Of a stretch of 40,092 bases of DNA, positions 12,190-19,660 are shown piece after piece. The position numbers and the translations under genes were made by a program. The stretch is from Nodosilinea sp. LEGE 07298. GTDB taxonomy: Bacteria > Cyanobacteriota > Cyanobacteriia > Phormidesmidales > Phormidesmidaceae. Every line of letters starts with the position of its first letter. Position 1 is the first letter of the stretch. The stretch is taken from the NCBI RefSeq assembly GCF_015207265.1, contig NZ_JADEXE010000025.1, positions 1 to 40,092 of the forward strand, given 5' to 3'. The notes below the pieces were generated by a model, which was given only the letters and a program-made list of their open reading frames with translations, ran no database searches and had not been told where the DNA came from.

Positions 12190-15012
12190 CTAGCCGGAAG
12201 TCGCTGGAGGGGGGCAATCGCCTTCTACAACCAAGGGATCGGCTGGGTTGGTGCCGAAAGTGGTGAGAATGCGCTGGGTCAGCTCGCGGCGATCGCCATT
12301 TTCGTCAAAGCTGATGGTGGTGGGCTGGTCAAAGATTTGGCTGACAGGCTTATTGCTGGTTGTTGCCAAGCCTTCTAGCTGATGCCGCAGACGACTAGAG
12401 GTTGTTTCGCCCTCCAGGTAGGGCAGCAGCACCTGCACGGCCTCATAGGGCAGGGTGGTGGTGCGGTTGACGCCGCCAGGCCAGTAGGTTTGGGTCGTTT
12501 GCTTGAACGCTTGGGGAGCGCATTGCTTGTGCCAATCGGTGGCGATAAAGACCCGATCGGTGAGGTTGGCAAGGCCACCGGCTGGTTCGATCACCGCTGA
12601 GTTGTACAGCGGATTAGAACCCAAGATGACTTTTTGGCCAGCATTTTGCTTGATCACGGCGATCGCATTGTCAAAGGCCCTGTTATTGGCATTGCGCCCG
12701 TCAGGAATCACAATTAGGGCACCGACATTGGGCACCTGGGCCAAGGCGGTGGCGGCGTCGAAGTCGCTGGCGGCCAGGTCGAAGCGCTCTACAATCTCGA
12801 CCCCTAGAGAGCCCAGTGCCTGCTCGAACTCGGCCAGCATGTCGGCACTGTAGGACTCGCCAGCCCGGTAGAACATCGCCACAGTGGAGGCTGCCCCCGC
12901 TAGCCTCAGCTCTTCTAAATAGTTCACCAACGTTTGGGTCTCGATGGCGGTTGATGAGGTGTTTCGAAAGAAAAAGGTGGCTGGGCTGTTGGGGGAGGGG
13001 CCACACTCGCTGCGCAGGCCAGTTTTGGTGCTGAGGGGAGAAATGACCACCAGGTTGGCGTCGTTGTAGGCCTGGGTGAGGGCGGCACAGGTGGTCGCGC
13101 TGAGGTAGTGGCCAATGACGGCGAGCACGCTGCGCCCGTCGATATCGACCTGGGTTAGGCCTCGGGCCGTGGCCTGGGCTTGCTCCCGGTTGTTGCGATC
13201 GTTGGCGATAATTACCTCCAGGTTGACCCGGGGTAGGCTCTCAGGACCGCCACCGTTGACCGTCTGGTCTTGGATTTGGGCGATACCCCGCAGCATTTCT
13301 TGGCCGATGTCGACGGCCTGTTCGTCGAGGGGAACGGCGGCGGCAATGGTGTAGATCATTGCGCCGGTCTCCGCCTGGCGGTGTCTGACCTCGGCATTGT
13401 TTTGAAAAATCAGCACGGTGGGGTCGAGTAGAGCGCTGGTAGCGGCATTTAAGGCCGCCCGGTCGGCGTCGGTGCGATCGCCCTCGGGTAGGGCCAGCAG
13501 GCGATCGCGATCGCGCTTTGCCTCGGTGCGAATGCTGGCGAAGCTCGCTTGGGCCTCGTCGTACTCACGGTCGGCAAAGGCTTTCATGCCGGCTTGCTTT
13601 AGCTCGGCGTAGGGAGATGCTAGCTCAGGGTTGCCCTCCAGTGCCGAGTTACCGCCAGCGCTGATCAAGCGCCGACTCTCGGTTGGTAACGGAGTGCTGC
13701 CCAGCTCTGGCGACGGCGGCTCGCGCAGGAGGCCAAAAGCCGCGATCGCACCCCCCAGCACCCCCGCCGCGCCTAGTCCAACGGTGGCCCAGCCTGGCCA
13801 GCGTTGGGCCGACCTATGACGCGGTTCCCGACGCCCACTGGATCGGGAGACATCCACGCCAGCAGGCAGGCTGGGGGATGGTTCTAGGTGGTCGATCAGG
13901 GTTTGCCAGGTGAGGGGGGGTGTATTTTGCTTGACAAAGAGAGTCGGCAGCCAGGTGACCTCAGAATAGCGGTTGTTGAAGGCCTCTAGCCCCTGGCGAG
14001 CCTTGCGTACTGCCGCCTGGAGCGATCGCCCCTCGACCACAAACTGCTGAAAGAAGCGCTCGATAAACTCCACCGCCGCATCGTCGGGGATGGGTTCTTT
14101 CATGACGATGCAGCGGGGCGCATCGAGGCGGGCAATCTGCTGGGCTAGCCCCAGGCCATCGCAGGAGTTGAGGATGATCAGCTGTAGCCCCTTCTCAATG
14201 GCGCGCCTGAGCGCCCGCTGAAAATCGCGAATGCTCAGTTCGTCGTGCTCGTTGAGCATCAGCCAGCCTCGCTGGCCATCGTCGTGGCTGTAGCTGTGGC
14301 CGACATAGATAAAGATGTGGTACCCCTGGGGATCCTCCAGCGCTTTTTGCAGCACCTCGGGCGTCGGTTGCAGCAGTGGTACAACCTCAACCCGCTCGGG
14401 ATCGTTGTGCTGCAGCTGAATAATGCTGGCGAGATCTTGGCAGGAGTTGATGCCGGTACTTTCGCCAATCACCACCAAGAGTCTAATTTTGGCACTGCGG
14501 GGATAGGTGGTGGTCAGGATCTGGTGGCGGCTGTCGTTAAATAGCCGAAAGGCCGCATCGGCATCGCGAAAGTGAGACGACAGCAGATCCCAATCTTGCC
14601 AGGGCAAGCGCTTGAGTTCGGTATTGCTGCCCAAATCAATAATCAGTCGCAGGTCTGGAGGCGGCTGATAGAGCAAGACGGCCATGGCCTCGCGAATGCG
14701 CAGCCAACCGTCATCTACGGGCCGCAGCCAGCTTCTAAAGCCCTGCTCGATCGCCTCGACTAGGGCGTTGGTCTCTTGCACAGTACGCTGGGTGGTCTCA
14801 ACGGCCATGATGCGAAAGTGCGATCGCACCCCCTCCTGGCCTGCGTAGGCCAGCTTCCAATCGCTCAGAGCCTGGCGCAGGTCGGGCGGCAGGGGCGGCA
14901 GGGTACCCTCTGTGTCTTCTCGCCTCAAATCGCTAGCATCCAACGTGACCCGAAAGCCCGCCGCTGGATCTGTTTCACTCTGCCGCCTGACGATTAAGCG
15001 AACCGTAGCCAT
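12190..15012 (-). CDS. CHAT caspase-like protease - transmembrane - periplasmic-binding-protein receptor
   Basis: 940 residues in four parts. Residues 1-375 are a CHAT (caspase-fold) domain: the catalytic His is in IFIYVGHSYSHDDG (His239), the catalytic Cys in LIILNSCDGLGLAQQI (Cys284), and the fold ends near EVTWLPTLFV. A basic stretch (GRREPRHRSAQRW) leads to one membrane helix (about 408-429), which by the positive-inside rule puts CHAT in the cytoplasm. Outside follow a helical TPR-like segment (about 455-520) and a type-I periplasmic binding protein domain (about 530-930, LivK/receptor-ligand type: MIYTIAAAVPLDEQAVDIGQ, VIGHYLSATTCAA, VVISPLSTKTGL, LPYEAVQVLLPYL). CHAT proteins are often ligand-activated proteases; a ligand-sensing membrane protease is inference. 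Last gene of an operon, 26 bp after DUF1822. Confidence 0.88.
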   Translation of the reverse strand: MATVRLIVRRQSETDPAAGFRVTLDASDLRREDTEGTLPPLPPDLRQALSDWKLAYAGQEGVRSHFRIMAVETTQRTVQETNALVEAIEQGFRSWLRPVDDGWLRIREAMAVLLYQPPPDLRLIIDLGSNTELKRLPWQDWDLLSSHFRDADAAFRLFNDSRHQILTTTYPRSAKIRLLVVIGESTGINSCQDLASIIQLQHNDPERVEVVPLLQPTPEVLQKALEDPQGYHIFIYVGHSYSHDDGQRGWLMLNEHDELSIRDFQRALRRAIEKGLQLIILNSCDGLGLAQQIARLDAPRCIVMKEPIPDDAAVEFIERFFQQFVVEGRSLQAAVRKARQGLEAFNNRYSEVTWLPTLFVKQNTPPLTWQTLIDHLEPSPSLPAGVDVSRSSGRREPRHRSAQRWPGWATVGLGAAGVLGGAIAAFGLLREPPSPELGSTPLPTESRRLISAGGNSALEGNPELASPYAELKQAGMKAFADREYDEAQASFASIRTEAKRDRDRLLALPEGDRTDADRAALNAATSALLDPTVLIFQNNAEVRHRQAETGAMIYTIAAAVPLDEQAVDIGQEMLRGIAQIQDQTVNGGGPESLPRVNLEVIIANDRNNREQAQATARGLTQVDIDGRSVLAVIGHYLSATTCAALTQAYNDANLVVISPLSTKTGLRSECGPSPNSPATFFFRNTSSTAIETQTLVNYLEELRLAGAASTVAMFYRAGESYSADMLAEFEQALGSLGVEIVERFDLAASDFDAATALAQVPNVGALIVIPDGRNANNRAFDNAIAVIKQNAGQKVILGSNPLYNSAVIEPAGGLANLTDRVFIATDWHKQCAPQAFKQTTQTYWPGGVNRTTTLPYEAVQVLLPYLEGETTSSRLRHQLEGLATTSNKPVSQIFDQPTTISFDENGDRRELTQRILTTFGTNPADPLVVEGDCPPPATSG

Positions 15013-15038
15013 AGCCTCATGCGCTCCCTGATGTTTAG

Positions 15039-15956
15039 CTAAACCATAAACTCTTCGATGGCGCTGGCCGATCGATAGGTGATGCGAACGCTAAATTGCT
15101 CGCCGGGTTGGCAGTCTGTTAGCACCAGTTCGGTGTAGACCGCATCGGCCTGGGTTTCGGTTTCTAGCAGCACGTCCCCCAGATCATTGAGTACCACAAC
15201 GTTGATCTGGCGCGGCAGAAGGGCTTTGCTGCTGGCAGGATAGAGCCGCAGGCGCACCGTCAAATGGTCGGCAGCGGCGGCAGCGATCACCTGCACCACC
15301 AAGACGACCAACTGGGCCGATTCTCCCAGGGTGATGGGCTTGGCCTGACTGATGGTTTGAGCGGTTGCTGGAAGGCTGGGGCGATAGCGGGTGGTAGCTA
15401 AAAGCTGCTCGGGTGGCTGCCAGGTTGGCGAGTCGAGCAGTCCCTCTAGCCACTGCCGCAGGTTCGCCACCGGATGCAGCGCATTGAGCAGGGCATCGAG
15501 GGGCAGCAGGTCGTCGATGGAAACGGTGAGCGGTTCAACCACCGTAAAATCGTCTGGTAGCGGCGGCAAAAAACCCACCAGTTCTACCCGATCGAGGGTG
15601 TCGAAAAACTGTACCGCTACACAGCCAATGCGATCGTCCAGCGCCTCTGGCGGCAGCGTAAACGATCGCTCGCCAGGCCATACTGGGCGGCACTCTAGCC
15701 GCCCCACCCCCACAATGGAGAGGTCGGCTCCATCGAGCAGGGCCGCTAGCCCCGGCTGCCAGCTATCGCCCTCGCTGACGGCGGTGGCGATGTCTAACCA
15801 CTGACAGTAGGTATGCACTGCCCACACCGCCAGTGTATTTAGGTATACGCGCCTGCCCTCGGCGGGGGTTGCCTGCTCTGCCGCCAGACGGGCGGCGTGG
15901 TCGTGGGCCTCGCGGTCGAGGGCAACGGGCAATCCCACTAGTTCAATCGCGGTCAT
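15039..15956 (-). CDS. DUF1822 family protein
   Basis: 305 residues, soluble, no signal peptide. The N-terminal pattern LPVALDREAHDHAARLAAEQ, then RRVYLNTLAVWAVHTYCQWL, followed by VGRLECRPVWPGE and VAVQFFDTLDRVELVGFLPP, is that of the cyanobacterial DUF1822 family. The C-terminal ~100 residues look like a beta-sandwich (LTVRLRLYPASSKALLPRQI, VVLNDLGDVLLETETQADAV). Function unknown. It sits between the sigma-like gene (20 bp upstream) and the CHAT gene (26 bp downstream), so it is probably co-expressed with them and may bridge the two. Confidence 0.85.
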   Translation of the reverse strand: MTAIELVGLPVALDREAHDHAARLAAEQATPAEGRRVYLNTLAVWAVHTYCQWLDIATAVSEGDSWQPGLAALLDGADLSIVGVGRLECRPVWPGERSFTLPPEALDDRIGCVAVQFFDTLDRVELVGFLPPLPDDFTVVEPLTVSIDDLLPLDALLNALHPVANLRQWLEGLLDSPTWQPPEQLLATTRYRPSLPATAQTISQAKPITLGESAQLVVLVVQVIAAAAADHLTVRLRLYPASSKALLPRQINVVVLNDLGDVLLETETQADAVYTELVLTDCQPGEQFSVRITYRSASAIEEFMV

Positions 15957-15976
15957 AGCAGCATCCCTAGACTAGA

Positions 15977-16951
15977 TTACAAGCGGTGGCGTTTGAGGTG
16001 AGGCAGGCACTGGGTTTGCCAGTGGGCTACCAAATCGGTTTCGTTGACGCGCAGCTCTTTGGCGATCGCCCGCAGGGGAGAGAGCACTTCTGACAACAGC
16101 AGGCGCTGCGACAATTCCAGACAGCTGCCGTGTTCTGTGCCCTCAAGCTGGCCCTGGCCAAAGTCGCGATCGGAATGAACTTGCAGGTAGTTTCGCACTT
16201 GGGGGTCGTGCCGTAGGGCAATGATTTGCAGCAGCGGCAGGCATTTGTCGCGCCAGTGGGTATAAACGGTTTGCTCATTGGCCTTGAGCTGGGTGGCAAT
16301 CGCCCGCTGGGTCAGCGGTGGCTGGCTCAGGTACAGCCCCTGCACCAGCCCTTGGCAGTGGCAGTCGGGATATTTTCTCGACTGACAGGCTCGCAATACC
16401 CCGTGGGGGTCGGATTCCAGGTACGCCCTGACCTGCTGCCCAATGCGTTGATATTGCTGAGCCTGTAAGCGCTCGATCCACTGCTCTAGCAGCGTATAGC
16501 GTCCCGATTTTGGATCGGCGGTCAGGGGCGCTTGGGTTGTGGTGTGTCCCTGACTGTCAATGACGGGTTTGTCTAGCTCTACGGGTGGCCCGAGCCCCAG
16601 TTTTGCAATCCGACGGTAGTCGCGATCGGTTCTGTCATCCTCGGCCCCCAGCCCCCTAGCACCTCTCAAATCCTGCACTCGCCGTTTGAGTGTGCCGTTT
16701 ACCCAGCGCAGCAAAGCCTCCGAAACAGAACCGTCTCCAGGGTCAAATTTGCAAATGTCTTTACGCACCCACACTAGAGTTCGGTTCAATGCCATGGCGT
16801 AGTCTTGATGAGAATCGCGCCAAAGCCGGGGCGATCGCGCAATGCACAGCATCAGGCGTGACAATATCTTGTGCCGTGCCAGCGGCGTTAACTCTGATTC
16901 GGGGGCGCAAAGTTTCTCCAGCCAACTCTGAAGTTGCGCATCGTCGCACAT
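15977..16951 (-). CDS. Sigma-70-like protein with duplicated C-terminal helix-turn-helix
   Basis: 324 residues from the ATG at 16951; the frame stays open to a GTG at 17008, which would add 19 residues but has its only purine-rich stretch adjoining the codon. The segment ALNRTLVWVRKDICKFDPGD to WVNGTLKRRVQDLRG resembles sigma region 2 of cyanobacterial sigma-like proteins. The C-terminal third contains two copies of one unit: RAIATQLKANEQTVYTHWRD with KCLPLL, and RAIAKELRVNETDLVAHWQT with QCLPHL, each a recognisable HTH. A CDCHC-like run (KYPDCHCQGL) precedes them. First gene of the operon with DUF1822 and CHAT. A role as promoter-specific regulator is inference. Confidence 0.72.
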   Translation of the reverse strand: MCDDAQLQSWLEKLCAPESELTPLARHKILSRLMLCIARSPRLWRDSHQDYAMALNRTLVWVRKDICKFDPGDGSVSEALLRWVNGTLKRRVQDLRGARGLGAEDDRTDRDYRRIAKLGLGPPVELDKPVIDSQGHTTTQAPLTADPKSGRYTLLEQWIERLQAQQYQRIGQQVRAYLESDPHGVLRACQSRKYPDCHCQGLVQGLYLSQPPLTQRAIATQLKANEQTVYTHWRDKCLPLLQIIALRHDPQVRNYLQVHSDRDFGQGQLEGTEHGSCLELSQRLLLSEVLSPLRAIAKELRVNETDLVAHWQTQCLPHLKRHRL

Positions 16952-17159
16952 GTCGCAGTTGTTCCCCAATCGGTAAATGCTCCAGTCCCATATAGAATAC
17001 GTGATCACTCCGGGAATCCCGTGACATCTATGGCTATATCAGATGCTGTACAGGCTGTTATGGAATTACCGTTGGCTAGGCACCAACCGGCGCTAGACGC
17101 TGGAGCGGGTCGCTACGACAAACCCTGACCCACTCTGCCCTAACCTGCCAACATCGCAA

Positions 17160-17204: not shown

Positions 17205-17275
<71 letters not shown>

Positions 17276-17828: not shown

Positions 17829-19399
17829 CTGGACAGTCACAAGTTTTATGTGGATCCAGGTTTAGATTTAGTCCGACAACGGTAGAGACTCAGGAGGTTT
17901 CTGAGGGCCAAGCTTGGCGGTTAGGAATTTAGGCAGAAGTAGCGTGGGCGGGCTTTTGGGAAAAACCTCCTGGGCTTGAGACTGGAGGGCGAGTTGGACA
18001 ATGCGCTCACTGGGGTAGCCATGGTTAGGCAGGGTGCGAAACCAGCGAGGGAAGTGTGCCCAGACCAGGGTGGGCAATTCTAAGGCCAATACCTGAAGCA
18101 CCCCTAAGGCAATGGCATTGAGATTGACAAAGCGTTCCAGTGCTTCCACTTTAGTCAGGATTTGGGCTTGAACGGACTCAGGGTAGTCCGCTAACTTGAG
18201 ATTTTTAGGCCAACTTGGAGCTGGGGTCATGGCTTTGAGCCAGAAGCGATAGGCAAAGCCCCCGAGCAGGTGAATCAGGGTGCGGAAGGTGAGCTCAATC
18301 TTAAAGCGTAAGCCATAGGCCGCAATCACCTCGGGGCCACTCAACGAGCCATCGGTGGAGACCAGAATGAATTGCCGACCATTAGCGAGTTGGGTGAGCA
18401 CAAAGCGCACCGTGGTCTCGGGATTATCCCAATGAAACTCAAAGCATTGGTAATAGACGGTGACAAGCTGACCATAGAGCCACACCTGAGTCTGCTGACA
18501 GTGCTCAAGCGGTGCGAATAGGGTCTGGAGTTTCACCCTGCTGCCCCATCGCCTGGGGCGTCCAGGGCCTTTCACCGTCGGCACCACCGAAAACTGAGCA
18601 TGGGCAACCGTTGAGCTCCGCACGCGGCTAATCAGATGCAGCTGATGACGTCGAAATCGTGTCACCACGGGTTCACAGGCAAAGTAGGCATCCAAGACGA
18701 TGTAGCTCCCGGCTTGGGCGTAGGCCGTACACAGGTCGGCCATCTTCGTCACCAAGGTGGTCTTCGGCTGAACCTCGGTCGCCTCAGCGGTGACGGTGAG
18801 ACCATCGTGAACTCTCAGGATAATCGGGACGGCAAAGTAGGCTGAACCCGCCCCTAGCAGGAGGCTTAAGGCGTTGAAGTAATGACCTCGAATCCACTCC
18901 GGCTTACTAACGTCCTCTGATTCTTGATGGAGCCCTTTCACGCCAGGCATTTTGCGGCCTTCTTTGGCCACCTTAATCCCGTCGCCGACATAGACCCGCT
19001 GTCCCTGGATTCGATGAACATGAACCTGCTCGTTCAGCCAGCTACCCCATCCCACACACAGCCTCTCCACGCTGAAGGCACACGACTTAAACCAGTGCAG
19101 CGCTTGGGCATAGTATTCTTCCCCTAGTCCTATCGCAATGAGGTAACTGGTCACCGCTGGCGGCTGCGTGTTCAACAGTACTCCCCACACGAACAGGACA
19201 AACCATCGAAACGAGGCCTCACGACTAAAGGCTGGGCGCAAGGCCCCAAGAATTTGCTCTAGGCGCTGGCAGAGCTCCATAATAATTCCTGGCTGTTGAT
19301 AATCACTTCAGCCAGTCTCGGACATGACAGCACCCAAGAGCGCAGGCATGTCCGTTTTCCTTCCCCTTCCCCACTGCTAGAGAACTTCGCACTGTCCAG
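17829..19399 (-). mobile_element. Complete insertion sequence, IS4-superfamily type, 1571 bp
   Basis: Ends match as inverted repeats: CTGGACAGTCACAAGTT at the left and, read inward from the right, CTGGACAGTGCGAAGTT (14 of 17 identical). Both ends are flanked by TTTTAATG, an 8-bp target duplication. One transposase gene occupies nearly the whole element. Ends, duplication and reading frame are all intact, so the insertion looks recent and possibly still mobile. It landed in a minus-strand gene (19408-19612) next to the HNH remnant. Confidence 0.88.
17868..19280 (-). CDS. DDE transposase, IS4 superfamily
   Basis: 470 residues. The DDE catalytic set is visible: first Asp in VYVGDGIKVAKEGRKMPGVK, second in YIVLDAYFACEPVV, and Glu in YGLRFKIELTFR, which fits the Y-(2)-R-(3)-E signature of IS4-type transposases. 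The ATG at 19280 has AGGA at a good distance (about 7 nt). The N-terminal hydrophobic stretch (FVLFVWGVLLNTQPPAVTSY) is usual in this group. The exact IS family needs comparison with an IS database; the DDE/IS4-like assignment is reasonably sure. Confidence 0.85.
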   Translation of the reverse strand: MELCQRLEQILGALRPAFSREASFRWFVLFVWGVLLNTQPPAVTSYLIAIGLGEEYYAQALHWFKSCAFSVERLCVGWGSWLNEQVHVHRIQGQRVYVGDGIKVAKEGRKMPGVKGLHQESEDVSKPEWIRGHYFNALSLLLGAGSAYFAVPIILRVHDGLTVTAEATEVQPKTTLVTKMADLCTAYAQAGSYIVLDAYFACEPVVTRFRRHQLHLISRVRSSTVAHAQFSVVPTVKGPGRPRRWGSRVKLQTLFAPLEHCQQTQVWLYGQLVTVYYQCFEFHWDNPETTVRFVLTQLANGRQFILVSTDGSLSGPEVIAAYGLRFKIELTFRTLIHLLGGFAYRFWLKAMTPAPSWPKNLKLADYPESVQAQILTKVEALERFVNLNAIALGVLQVLALELPTLVWAHFPRWFRTLPNHGYPSERIVQLALQSQAQEVFPKSPPTLLLPKFLTAKLGPQKPPESLPLSD

Positions 19400-19612
19400 T
19401 TTTAATGCTCCGCCAAGGTAACCCAAGGCTTTGCAGTAGAAATCGTTTAGGTTCTCTAGGGACAGGCGCTTTACCGTCTGGTAATCGCCTTGCTGAAACG
19501 ACTGGAGTGCTTGACGGTGAATATCAGTCTCGGGCTCTCCTAGAACTTCAAAGATGATGGCGATGGCTGCGTTGACCTTCTCGGTCGTTAATTCTGCTAC
19601 TGGAGCGCTCAT
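19259..19612 (-). pseudogene. Hypothetical gene split by the insertion sequence
   Basis: Starts at ATG 19612 (GAGG about 10 nt upstream; a second ATG at 19630). The native part is about 69 residues: MSAPVAELTTEKVNAAIAII, then FEVLGEPETDIHRQALQSFQ and LNDFYCKALGYLGGAL. At 19407 the frame crosses the target duplication into the insertion sequence and ends at 19259 with about 48 element-encoded residues. Restoring the target joins it to a frame that ends after about 30 more residues at the left flank, antisense to the HNH remnant. Soluble, helical, family not recognised. Confidence 0.5.
19400..19407. repeat. Right target-site duplication of the insertion sequence
   Basis: TTTTAATG, identical to 17821-17828. 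Confidence 0.85.
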
Positions 19613-19660
19613 AAGCTCTATCCTCAACATTCACTAGGAGAATAGTACAGCTTGCCTGTG

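Follow-up and report, generated by a model that had tools for sequence, protein, structure and literature searches.

A sigma-like, DUF1822 and CHAT receptor gene trio that looks like one signalling device in cyanobacteria

Main finding

The sigma-like, DUF1822 and CHAT receptor genes found together in Nodosilinea sp. LEGE 07298 (GCF_015207265.1, contig NZ_JADEXE010000025.1; the whole 40,092-nt stretch analysed is called the window) look like one signalling device. On a reading we rate marginally better than even, they would form a three-part transmembrane cassette in which an outside ligand activates CHAT, DUF1822 is cut or displaced and an ECF-type sigma is freed. This reading draws on the parts and their order, their recurrence across genomes, an intact catalytic dyad, topology signals and the swapping of sensors, seen in sequence or structure models. 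The gene trio is not new, a similar proposal having been made by Kaur, Iyer, Burroughs and Aravind (eLife 2021; PMC8195603, cited here from excerpts, as are the other papers); added here are replacement of the protease, a membrane form of DUF1822, a promoter-like motif and a DUF1822 model that is not a TPR protein.

Gene layout and the CHAT receptor-protease

As an earlier note on this DNA had described, three minus-strand genes (15977-17008, 15039-15956 and 12190-15012) are separated by gaps of 20 and 26 bp; all features below are on the same strand. P0003 is a divergent ECF-type sigma-like gene (15977..16951; relatives' starts, AlphaFold2 model, VIA-align and profile match), P0002 encodes a DUF1822 protein, proposed to be a sigma-binding regulator (15039..15956; Pfam E=4.3e-45; AF2 pLDDT 89.2), and P0001 encodes a CHAT - membrane helix - type I periplasmic binding protein (12190..15012; Pfam). 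Each of the four DUF1822 genes found in the Nodosilinea genome is immediately followed by a CHAT gene, a linkage beyond chance.

The 940-residue P0001 product carries a CHAT caspase-fold domain at approximately residues 171-370 (13903..14502; PF12770, E=1.5e-13, 51.3 bits against a cut-off of 24), and the CHAT-family profile A4 matches 8tl0, a CHAT protein of solved structure (E=2.5e-5), the H and C columns being aligned. The dyad picked out by the earlier note, His239 (YVGHS; codon 14296..14298) and Cys284 (LNSCDG; codon 14161..14163), is in place and is intact in 63 rows of the 65-row alignment, the remaining two being fragments gapped at the dyad; as two of the 63 repeat genes already represented, 61 alignable genes are left, all with the dyad. 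The conserved region ahead of CHAT (~residues 1-170; 14503..15012; alignment A4) sits where Kaur et al. place 'EACC2' (PMC8195603), an assignment made by position. A Pfam search of P0001 for TPR gave no match up to E=1.

A single membrane helix (residues 411-429; 13726..13782) is the sole hydrophobic segment found. Its CHAT side is basic, as had been claimed (net charge +4 over the 20 residues preceding the helix and 0 following it), and the same side is the more positive in 44 of the 48 family rows having such a helix. These are signs of a cytoplasmic CHAT and an extracellular ligand-binding domain. The latter, a type I periplasmic binding protein domain also recognised in the earlier note (residues 556-883; 12364..13347), matches Peripla_BP_6 (E=2.1e-13, 51.1 bits against a cut-off of 31.7), and its profile A3 matches PDB entries 4mlc (E=6.8e-28) and LivJ 1z15 (E=3e-16). 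S638 and T662 of P0001 align with LivJ S79 and T102, which we take to be ligand contacts in LivJ.

The DUF1822 protein and its membrane form

The 305-residue P0002 protein is modelled by AF2 as an N-terminal alpha/beta domain (residues 1-185; 15402..15956), which has a homologue in a membrane protein, a hinge (~residues 186-199; 15360..15401) that is a candidate cleavage region, and a C-terminal Ig/Fn3-like beta sandwich (residues 200-305; 15042..15359). Hinge length varies within the family, with 17-107 residues from W179 to the C-domain, and one hinge position is Arg in 42/100 DUF1822 rows and Gln in P0002. The best fold match of the C-domain (Z 7.6) is to a common fold, too widespread to say anything on function, and the DUF1822 profile had no match among PDB sequences. 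Of the 146 genomes sampled from the phylum, 102 have DUF1822, to which Pfam assigns no function.

In a second class, with small genomes and presumably a non-photosynthetic lineage, a membrane protein with a membrane helix and a TonB-like C-end begins with a DUF1822 N-domain. At 7/8 loci fetched its gene is followed after 12-40 bp by an ECF-like sigma gene, the eighth being interrupted by a contig end. DUF1822 is next to ECF-like sigma genes in both classes, an adjacency typical of anti-sigma factors, and as judged from gene arrangement the membrane form beside its sigma gene resembles an anti-sigma layout.

The sigma-like protein

The open frame of P0003 begins at GTG 17008, although the probable start is ATG 16951 (324 aa), since MCDD is where its three close relatives start. 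P0003 gave no match above the Pfam cut-off, including sigma-70 region 2 and region 4; a region 4 match is present in the upstream genes of two other cassettes (L044, L062). The sigma-like identity suggested earlier gains support from the AlphaFold2 model, which aligns mostly to sigma factors in VIA-align (nearly all of the 50 listed rows). A sigma region 2-like domain (residues 22-127, counted from GTG 17008; 16628..16945) aligns with sigmaE region 2 (5or5; Z 7.8, rmsd 3.1, 88 residues), although the sigma-fold Z scores, 7.8-8.2, fall under the VIA-align line and may represent a common helical arrangement. Foldseek with the same model returned nothing below E 0.001. When the sigma-family alignment A2 was run against PDB with hmmsearch, ECF SigE was the best match (E=0.0015), in the region 2-like part; hhalign of the profiles of two sigma-like clades was weak (probability 8%). 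Two helix-turn-helix-like repeats (~residues 218-266 and 296-342; 15983..16357; AF2 helices, alignment A2) follow, with weak matches below the Pfam cut-off, and the second is an extra that few relatives have. Model and family profile together point to sigma factors.

Recurrence and exchange of parts

The neighbours predicted for DUF1822 did recur in a survey of 99 other DUF1822 loci from 45 genomes: 88/99 have a sigma-like gene immediately upstream, and 59/99 have a gene of this CHAT subfamily immediately downstream. In 10 further loci (total 69/99) another protease-type gene takes the third place: TPR-CHAT in four, trypsin-like in three, caspase C14 in two and a CHAT of different layout in one; loci L013 and L014 also pair sigma-like and DUF1822 genes with a caspase-type gene. 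By comparison with the 69, protease-type ORFs elsewhere at the same loci are upstream (12) or downstream on the opposite strand (10). Since the place just downstream of DUF1822 holds no protease-type gene in 30/99 loci, and three genomes have DUF1822 without a strong match of this CHAT subfamily, DUF1822 need not be cut by a neighbour.

Conversely, DUF1822 is directly upstream of 72/108 strong CHAT-subfamily matches versus 2/41 of the weaker CHAT matches listed, a count made with profile A4 and biased to cassettes because the sequences behind A4 came from cassettes. Strong matches occur in 45 genomes, all of them within the 48 that have DUF1822 among the matches listed. Behind the constant CHAT the module is swapped, with at least five kinds including CHASE2, binding proteins, nSTAND/WD40 and TPR; sensors at the 59 CHAT loci include 39 CHASE2 and 9 type I binding proteins, the latter requiring at least three changes on the CHAT tree. 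Within genomes, paralogue distances correlate among the sigma-like, DUF1822 and CHAT proteins.

A promoter-like motif

A bipartite promoter-like motif was identified upstream of 9/43 related sigma genes, and its sites genome-wide led to three more sigma-DUF1822 pairs (L229, L244, L245) that had not been used in defining it. The motif also precedes CHAT-nSTAND and trypsin-like genes outside cassettes, and further linked genes include some for M50 peptidases and for proteins that are secreted or sit at the surface. A looser search gave 50 sites versus 30 with the reversed pattern, so many of the 50 are chance. It is missing from the cassette in the window (score -2.5), and the Nodosilinea genome has 0 sites. 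With the membrane form of DUF1822, the motif may be taken as new support for a transcription output.

Proposed mechanism and alternatives

In the favoured scheme the outer domain of P0001 would bind a small molecule, probably amino-acid-like, and the signal would cross the single membrane helix to the cytoplasmic CHAT. Activated CHAT would then cleave DUF1822, or DUF1822 may recruit CHAT, with release of P0003. DUF1822 would be a sigma inhibitor or holder, its N-domain holding sigma and the beta sandwich behind the hinge being the part read or cut by CHAT. Freed P0003 would transcribe target genes and its own operon, the latter control being one that we infer by analogy with related cassettes. 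Weighing against the scheme are the 30 loci with no protease-type gene in third place, the lack of the motif in the window cassette and the Nodosilinea genome, the Gln at the P0002 hinge position, and the weakness of the sigma fold and clade-profile matches.

If, instead, the ligand made CHAT cut its own chain, the freed cytoplasmic part might act while DUF1822 serves as an adaptor. We consider such autoprocessing unlikely, although it is close to the autopeptidase activation proposed for these systems by Kaur et al. (PMC8195603): some sensor parts (nSTAND, TPR) have no extracellular domain, and unrelated trypsin-like proteins replace the protease while sigma and DUF1822 stay, a better fit to a shared external target. 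A cell-death or anti-phage device, in which CHAT cuts many proteins or activates a killer and sigma only controls expression of the system, seems decidedly unlikely. CHAT, nSTAND, WD40, trypsin and caspase C14 partners do occur at DUF1822 loci, CHAT, nSTAND and trypsin- or caspase-type peptidases belong to predicted conflict systems (PMC10907252), and CHAT-nSTAND and trypsin-like genes outside cassettes share the motif. However, that motif is linked to surface/secreted proteins and M50 peptidases as well, PADLOC gives no match for any of the three proteins, the sensors (39 CHASE2 and 9 type I binding proteins of 59) are mostly of an extracellular small-molecule type, and nothing in the analysis speaks for death over transcription. 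The sign might also be reversed, with CHAT cutting sigma, or DUF1822 acting as a sigma co-activator or chaperone, and the signal turning the response off. The order sigma-DUF1822-protease is silent on direction and an adjacent protease-type gene is missing at the 30 loci mentioned, but the membrane protein with the DUF1822 N-domain resembles membrane anti-sigma factors and the tested CHAT precedent, Csx29-Csx30-CASP-sigma, frees a sigma (PMC10028731), making reversal improbable, slightly more so than the death device.

Extending the favoured release of sigma to the phylum is tentative, and we place it somewhat short of even: DUF1822 proteins would be phylum-wide ECF-sigma holders (anti-sigma factors), with their own membrane anchor or a separate receptor-caspase. 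In one class the holder itself would carry the membrane helix and TonB-like end, while photosynthetic cyanobacteria would have a stand-alone holder, sensing having passed to a separate ligand-gated receptor-caspase that cuts it, a one-step 'death-receptor-like' protease serving transcription. Sensors (CHASE2, binding proteins, STAND) and proteases (CHAT, caspase, trypsin) would be interchangeable before the sigma pair, and sigma would serve a dedicated promoter common to surface-protein and protease genes.

If true, a bacterial caspase-fold protease would be a membrane receptor with transcription output instead of death, in a direct path from ligand to protease to sigma with exchangeable sensors, DUF1822 would gain a testable role, and the cassette would be an outside-triggered counterpart of the RNA-triggered Csx29-Csx30-sigma circuit. 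The motif and membrane DUF1822 open the idea to tests in a laboratory cyanobacterium or E. coli.

Comparison with known systems

One close likeness is to the EACC2-caspase systems, caspase proteins with a constant N-terminal module plus a caspase-type domain, variable C-termini (including CHASE2, STAND and small-molecule-binding domains) and ECF sigma and DUF1822 neighbours, for which sensing and a sigma step were proposed (PMC8195603). The window cassette has the same neighbours, sigma being recognised by fold and profile, and its CHAT family likewise joins a constant CHAT region to a variable C-terminus. The excerpted description names no type I periplasmic binding protein C-terminus such as that of P0001; it mentions no promoter, regulon or membrane DUF1822, and calls DUF1822 a TPR protein, whereas it is modelled here as alpha/beta plus Ig-like.

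Caspase-fold proteases with extracellular receptor domains are also known as metacaspase-CHASE2 and metacaspase-ANF_receptor proteins of cyanobacteria (PMC3501461, PMC2853523); a cytoplasmic protease was predicted for one CHASE2 metacaspase in 2012, and the same paper reports metacaspase/sigma-70 operons in other bacteria (PMC3501461). These are Peptidase C14 and not CHAT, and DUF1822 has 0 occurrences in PMC3501461. HetF of Anabaena, the namesake CHAT protein, is likewise a cyanobacterial membrane CHAT with a conserved, required active site, but bears TPR and has its role in cell division and heterocyst formation, with no adjacent DUF1822 mentioned in the excerpts (PMC8406250).

In RseA/DegS-type proteolysis (named in PMC10028731) a protease acting on an anti-sigma likewise frees an ECF sigma. 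The anti-sigma there spans the membrane, whereas in the window cassette receptor and protease are one protein and DUF1822 lacks a sensor part; in the other class the DUF1822 protein does have a membrane helix. The earlier note's interpretation is supported in part: the unit recurs, and its analogy with anti-sigma proteolysis has a tested precedent. The idea is not new. That precedent is Craspase of type III-E CRISPR, in which Csx29 cleaves Csx30, inhibitor of CASP-sigma (PMC10028731). Both systems have a CHAT protease and a protein of two domains joined by a flexible linker, which inhibits an ECF sigma in Craspase and would do so for the sigma-like P0003 in the window cassette, giving the same protease-inhibitor-sigma logic; Csx29 is TPR-CHAT and is triggered by RNA via Cas7-11, whereas P0001 is a CHAT-helix-binding protein whose proposed trigger is an outside ligand.

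Gene content and surroundings of the cassette

Gene calls and Pfam confirmed the coordinates, strand, spacing and domain order reported in the earlier note: three genes on the minus strand, first the sigma-like gene (P0003, 15977-17008), then DUF1822 (P0002, 15039-15956) and CHAT-receptor (P0001, 12190-15012; 940 aa), separated by gaps of 20 and 26 bp. The sigma-like gene probably starts at ATG 16951, not at GTG 17008, because its three nearest relatives (L013, L014 and L124) open with MCDD. None of the cassette proteins has a match in NCBIfam or PADLOC. The window corresponds to contig C250, one of 617 in a genome of 7.25 Mb. Upstream of the cassette lie a tRNA-Cys gene (17205-17275, plus strand) and a DDE transposase gene (17868-19280, minus strand), the latter overlapped by a 123-aa ORF without a Pfam match (region 17868-19630).

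Recurrence of the three-gene unit

The cassette is real and recurrent, and belongs to a predicted kind of system. DUF1822 is present in 102 of 146 genomes of the phylum, and 100 loci were fetched, mainly from the top of the matches listed for the window's class (skipping some partial or lower-scoring ones), with two further loci of the window's genome (contigs C593 and C293) and one of genome G033 added to the set. The window's own cassette was excluded, as was L059 (stop inside the match), leaving 99 loci with a readable ORF, from 45 genomes. A sigma-like gene lies directly upstream of DUF1822 in 88/99 and a CHAT gene of the P0001-type subfamily directly downstream in 59/99, bearing out the neighbourhood that the earlier note had proposed to survey. 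Five more loci have a sigma-like gene farther up the same strand: in four (L065, L067, L068 and L076) a CHAT gene of TPR-CHAT type stands between it and DUF1822, together with extra genes in two, and in L143 a 420-bp gap separates the two. L063 shares its sigma-like gene with a divergent cassette. In L064, L066, L085, L100 and L125 no sigma-like gene was found upstream of DUF1822 within the stretches read; L125 has one 4.7 kb downstream.

A reverse count compared 131 DUF1822 places with 149 CHAT places among the matches listed, excluding the second piece of one CHAT ORF in G091. DUF1822 is directly upstream of 72/108 strong matches to the CHAT profile versus 2/41 weaker ones, the boundary (140 bits) having been chosen by us at a gap in the scores; this count favours cassette members, since the profile was built from them. 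All 45 genomes with strong CHAT matches fall, among the matches listed, within the 48 with DUF1822. Chance adjacency of the trio was rejected on these counts and on that of protease-type genes given below. Paralogue distances, compared for 21 pairs from 12 genomes with several cassettes, correlate for DUF1822-CHAT (r 0.80), DUF1822-sigma (r 0.73) and sigma-CHAT (r 0.68), values equally high in 46, 26 and 60, respectively, of 2000 within-genome shuffles.

The same trio occurs in L013 and L014 (named MAG records; P0001 identity 46-47% in its best segment), and in the window's genome each of the 4 DUF1822 genes found immediately precedes a CHAT gene. On C293 and C593, this genome has two more sigma-DUF1822-CHAT-CHASE2 cassettes, which lie within a few kb of large, high-scoring CHAT genes. 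Four related cassettes (L174, L175, L178 and L179) carry a CHAT gene of TPR-CHAT type (913-941 aa) between sigma and DUF1822, giving two CHAT proteins from one gene run; TPRs were checked in L175, where matches to the PDB are confined to the TPR part.

The CHAT protease and its replacements

The catalytic pair named in the earlier note, His239 and Cys284, is kept in 63/65 aligned rows, the remaining two being fragments gapped there, and the possibility of a dead pseudoprotease is not supported on these grounds. The 63 rows with the pair represent 61 genes; two CHAT genes were entered twice, since L063 and L092 overlap. Among solved structures, one CHAT protein (8tl0) is matched by the CHAT profile at E=2.5e-5, and the GH and N-C columns line up in this match. 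P0001 has no TPR according to Pfam, and was rejected as a Craspase part. As the CHAT side is the more positive in 44/48 rows that have a helix following CHAT, the positive-inside rule predicts a cytoplasmic CHAT domain, upholding the topology argued for previously.

With replacements included, a protease-type gene directly follows DUF1822 in 69/99 loci. The P0001-type CHAT is replaced by a TPR-CHAT-type protein (L052, L053, L054 and L114), a trypsin-like protein (L095, L098 and L099), a caspase C14-type protein (L136 and L139) or another CHAT layout (L093), as called by Pfam for L052, L053, L098, L099, L114 and L139 and by self-built profiles for the others. Control positions in the same 99 loci hold 12 (upstream) and 10 (downstream on the opposite strand) protease-type ORFs; no protease-type gene was found directly downstream of DUF1822 in the other 30/99. 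The TAAHV motif is found in all three trypsin-like replacements and G-[DS]-S-G in two, while L139 of the caspase C14 type has H and DAC and L136 has H but not DAC. The occurrence of unrelated protease types in one position points to proteolysis as the function they have in common.

The exchangeable sensor

The module after CHAT is CHASE2 in 39/59 cases, a type I binding protein in 9 and nSTAND1, with or without WD40, in 5; the six others include TPR (L088) and PBP_like_2 (L103), labelled here as a type II binding protein. The CHAT tree comprised 59 rows including the window, excluding ORFs <500 aa and reverse-strand ORFs; L093 and L108 were omitted for want of a clear C-terminal label, and L013 and L014 are also absent. 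On its well-supported branches there are at least three changes involving the type I binding protein and two involving nSTAND. The nearest neighbours of the window's CHAT are L124, with the same sensor type, then L103.

Profile comparison puts the outer domain of P0001 nearest to binding proteins of the amino-acid type (4mlc, E=6.8e-28; LivJ, E=3e-16). Its residues S638 and T662 are aligned with LivJ Ser79 and Thr102, which we take to contact ligand; an amino-acid-like ligand is thus a reasonable guess at best. Free-standing matches to the binding-protein profile (401-452 aa) are found within ~5 kb of some cassettes (L066, 1091-2296, minus strand; L084; L090; L091).

The sigma-like protein

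As a single query, P0003 gave nothing above cut-off in Pfam and sequence searches; the best PDB match of its family profile is an ECF SigE (E=0.0015). Almost all of the 50 alignments listed for the AlphaFold2 model (mean pLDDT 83) are to sigma factors. Its region 2-like part superposes on region 2 of sigmaE with Z 7.8 (rmsd 3.1, 88 residues) and the protein on whole sigmaE with Z 8.2 but rmsd 14, both Z values lying in a range that may reflect an arrangement common in helical proteins; Foldseek returned no match to the model under E 0.001. In a second sigma clade, two sigma-like genes have a Pfam Sigma70_r4 match above cut-off, and profile comparison gave a weak link between the two clades. 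Cys-rich segments (type C-x3-K-x-P-x-C-x-C) precede the helix-turn-helix repeats in P0003 and its closest relatives, partly lost in the second repeat of P0003 (gene at 15977-16951), and are possibly a metal site.

DUF1822 and its membrane form

The model of P0002 (pLDDT 89.2) consists of an alpha/beta N-domain, a hinge (17 to 107 residues across the family) and an Ig/Fn3-like C-domain. DUF1822 as a TPR protein was rejected, the model predicting an alpha/beta domain plus beta sandwich instead. Matches listed in the fold search were all taken up by the C-domain; those from Foldseek to the sensor domain of anti-sigma RsgI4 were weak and generic, and were set aside.

A membrane form was identified in a set of eight loci from another class of the phylum, with genomes of ~2 Mb and one DUF1822 match each, at a guess a non-photosynthetic lineage. 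In seven (L277, L278 and L280-L284) the DUF1822 match is at the N-end of a ~970-1300-aa protein, and an ECF-like sigma gene comes next, after a gap of 12-40 bp; the contig end truncates the eighth locus, L279. Six long proteins examined in full have a strong membrane helix between an Asp/Glu-rich linker and a short C-end, with two additional weaker hydrophobic stretches in L280. Of five long proteins scanned, Pfam supports the DUF1822 match in four and finds a TonB-type C-end above cut-off in four; sigma region 4 was detected in 4/4 scanned neighbouring sigma genes. The predicted layout matches that of membrane anti-sigma factors, the best reason given for regarding DUF1822 as a putative sigma holder. 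In many small genomes belonging to a single family, the DUF1822 match occurs just once per genome.

A promoter-like motif and a putative regulon of related cassettes

Canonical ECF (GAAC/CGT) and sigma-70 patterns upstream of sigma genes showed no excess versus shuffles, and the search then pursued words found by k-mers in these regions; one, CGATCGC, is presumably the common cyanobacterial HIP1 repeat and was set aside. Four upstream regions of the window's own sigma clade gave no convincing motif, and TGCATAA-like words, without a fixed partner, are present in 16/51 regions of the second clade. Upstream of the P0003-type sigma clade, 9/43 regions, from eight genomes, contain TAAAGTTTTGTAA-N14/15-TGCGTAAAA or near copies, scoring 28-34 (best shuffled score 14.3; matrix trained on the same set); eight further regions score 20-25, mostly through one half of the motif. 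L095 and L132 are examples of cassettes that carry it.

The strict pattern GTTTTGTAAN{13,16}YSYRTAAAA occurs 25 times across 146 genomes, with 21 sites versus 5 for the reversed pattern within the class (64 genomes) and 4 versus 12 outside it. The 34 class genomes holding the P0003-type sigma clade contain 20/21 class sites and 4/5 reversed ones; of the 21, eight are found 86-180 nt ahead of the start of a P0003-type sigma match, seven of these being motif-defining sites.

A looser search of 12 genomes gave 50 sites versus 30 reversed: nine motif-defining and 41 others, of which 40 were read (G042:C1:2220038 was left out). Three of the 40 (L229, L244 and L245) precede sigma-DUF1822 pairs outside the defining set, and are the fairest test passed by the motif. 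Other sites lie in front of trypsin-like genes (L219 and L242), CHAT-nSTAND genes located apart from DUF1822 (immediately in L232 and L241, 839 nt away in L243) and M50-type peptidase genes (L227, L233 and L234 above the Pfam cut-off, L247 just below), the last from four genomes and three families, with L233 and L234 in one genus. TPS proteins follow directly (L236) or as a later gene (L225 and L226), and surface-type proteins (DUF11/DUF4347, DUF4114, subtilase) follow L213, L217, L237 and L238. Further sites precede a kinase, a cytochrome peroxidase-like protein and other genes, many of the remaining ones lack an informative neighbour, and a good share of them must be due to chance. Motif scoring and a genome-wide pattern search found no copy in the window's cassette or its genome, so a dedicated promoter for P0003 itself would be predicted only by analogy.

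Comparison with known systems

In the available text of Kaur et al. 2021 (PMC8195603), caspase proteins combine a constant EACC2 module with variable C-termini, including CHASE2 and STAND; genes for ECF sigma and a 'TPR protein (Pfam: DUF1822)' adjoin them, and sensing, autopeptidase activation and a sigma step are proposed. Passages in other sources place CHAT proteins near ECF54 sigma factors (review PMC8999054) and date metacaspase-CHASE2 and metacaspase-ANF_receptor proteins to 2010 and 2012 (PMC2853523, PMC3501461). Besides Kaur et al. 2021, DUF1822 was found in the open-licence literature as a table entry only, and the accessible portions of that literature yielded no earlier report of protease replacement, of a membrane form of DUF1822 or of the motif. 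The binding-protein receptor, with the added DUF1822 and promoter evidence, makes the circuit testable.

The evidence is compatible with a receptor-protease acting on a sigma holder, triggered, as proposed, by a ligand outside the cell; cleavage, the cleavage site and the sign of control are what we infer. Csx29-Csx30-CASP-sigma provides a tested precedent: in the text available (PMC10028731), a two-domain inhibitor is cut by CHAT, and the reported findings support the view that an ECF sigma is thereby relieved. The window's cassette would differ from this precedent in its trigger, the proposed outside ligand.
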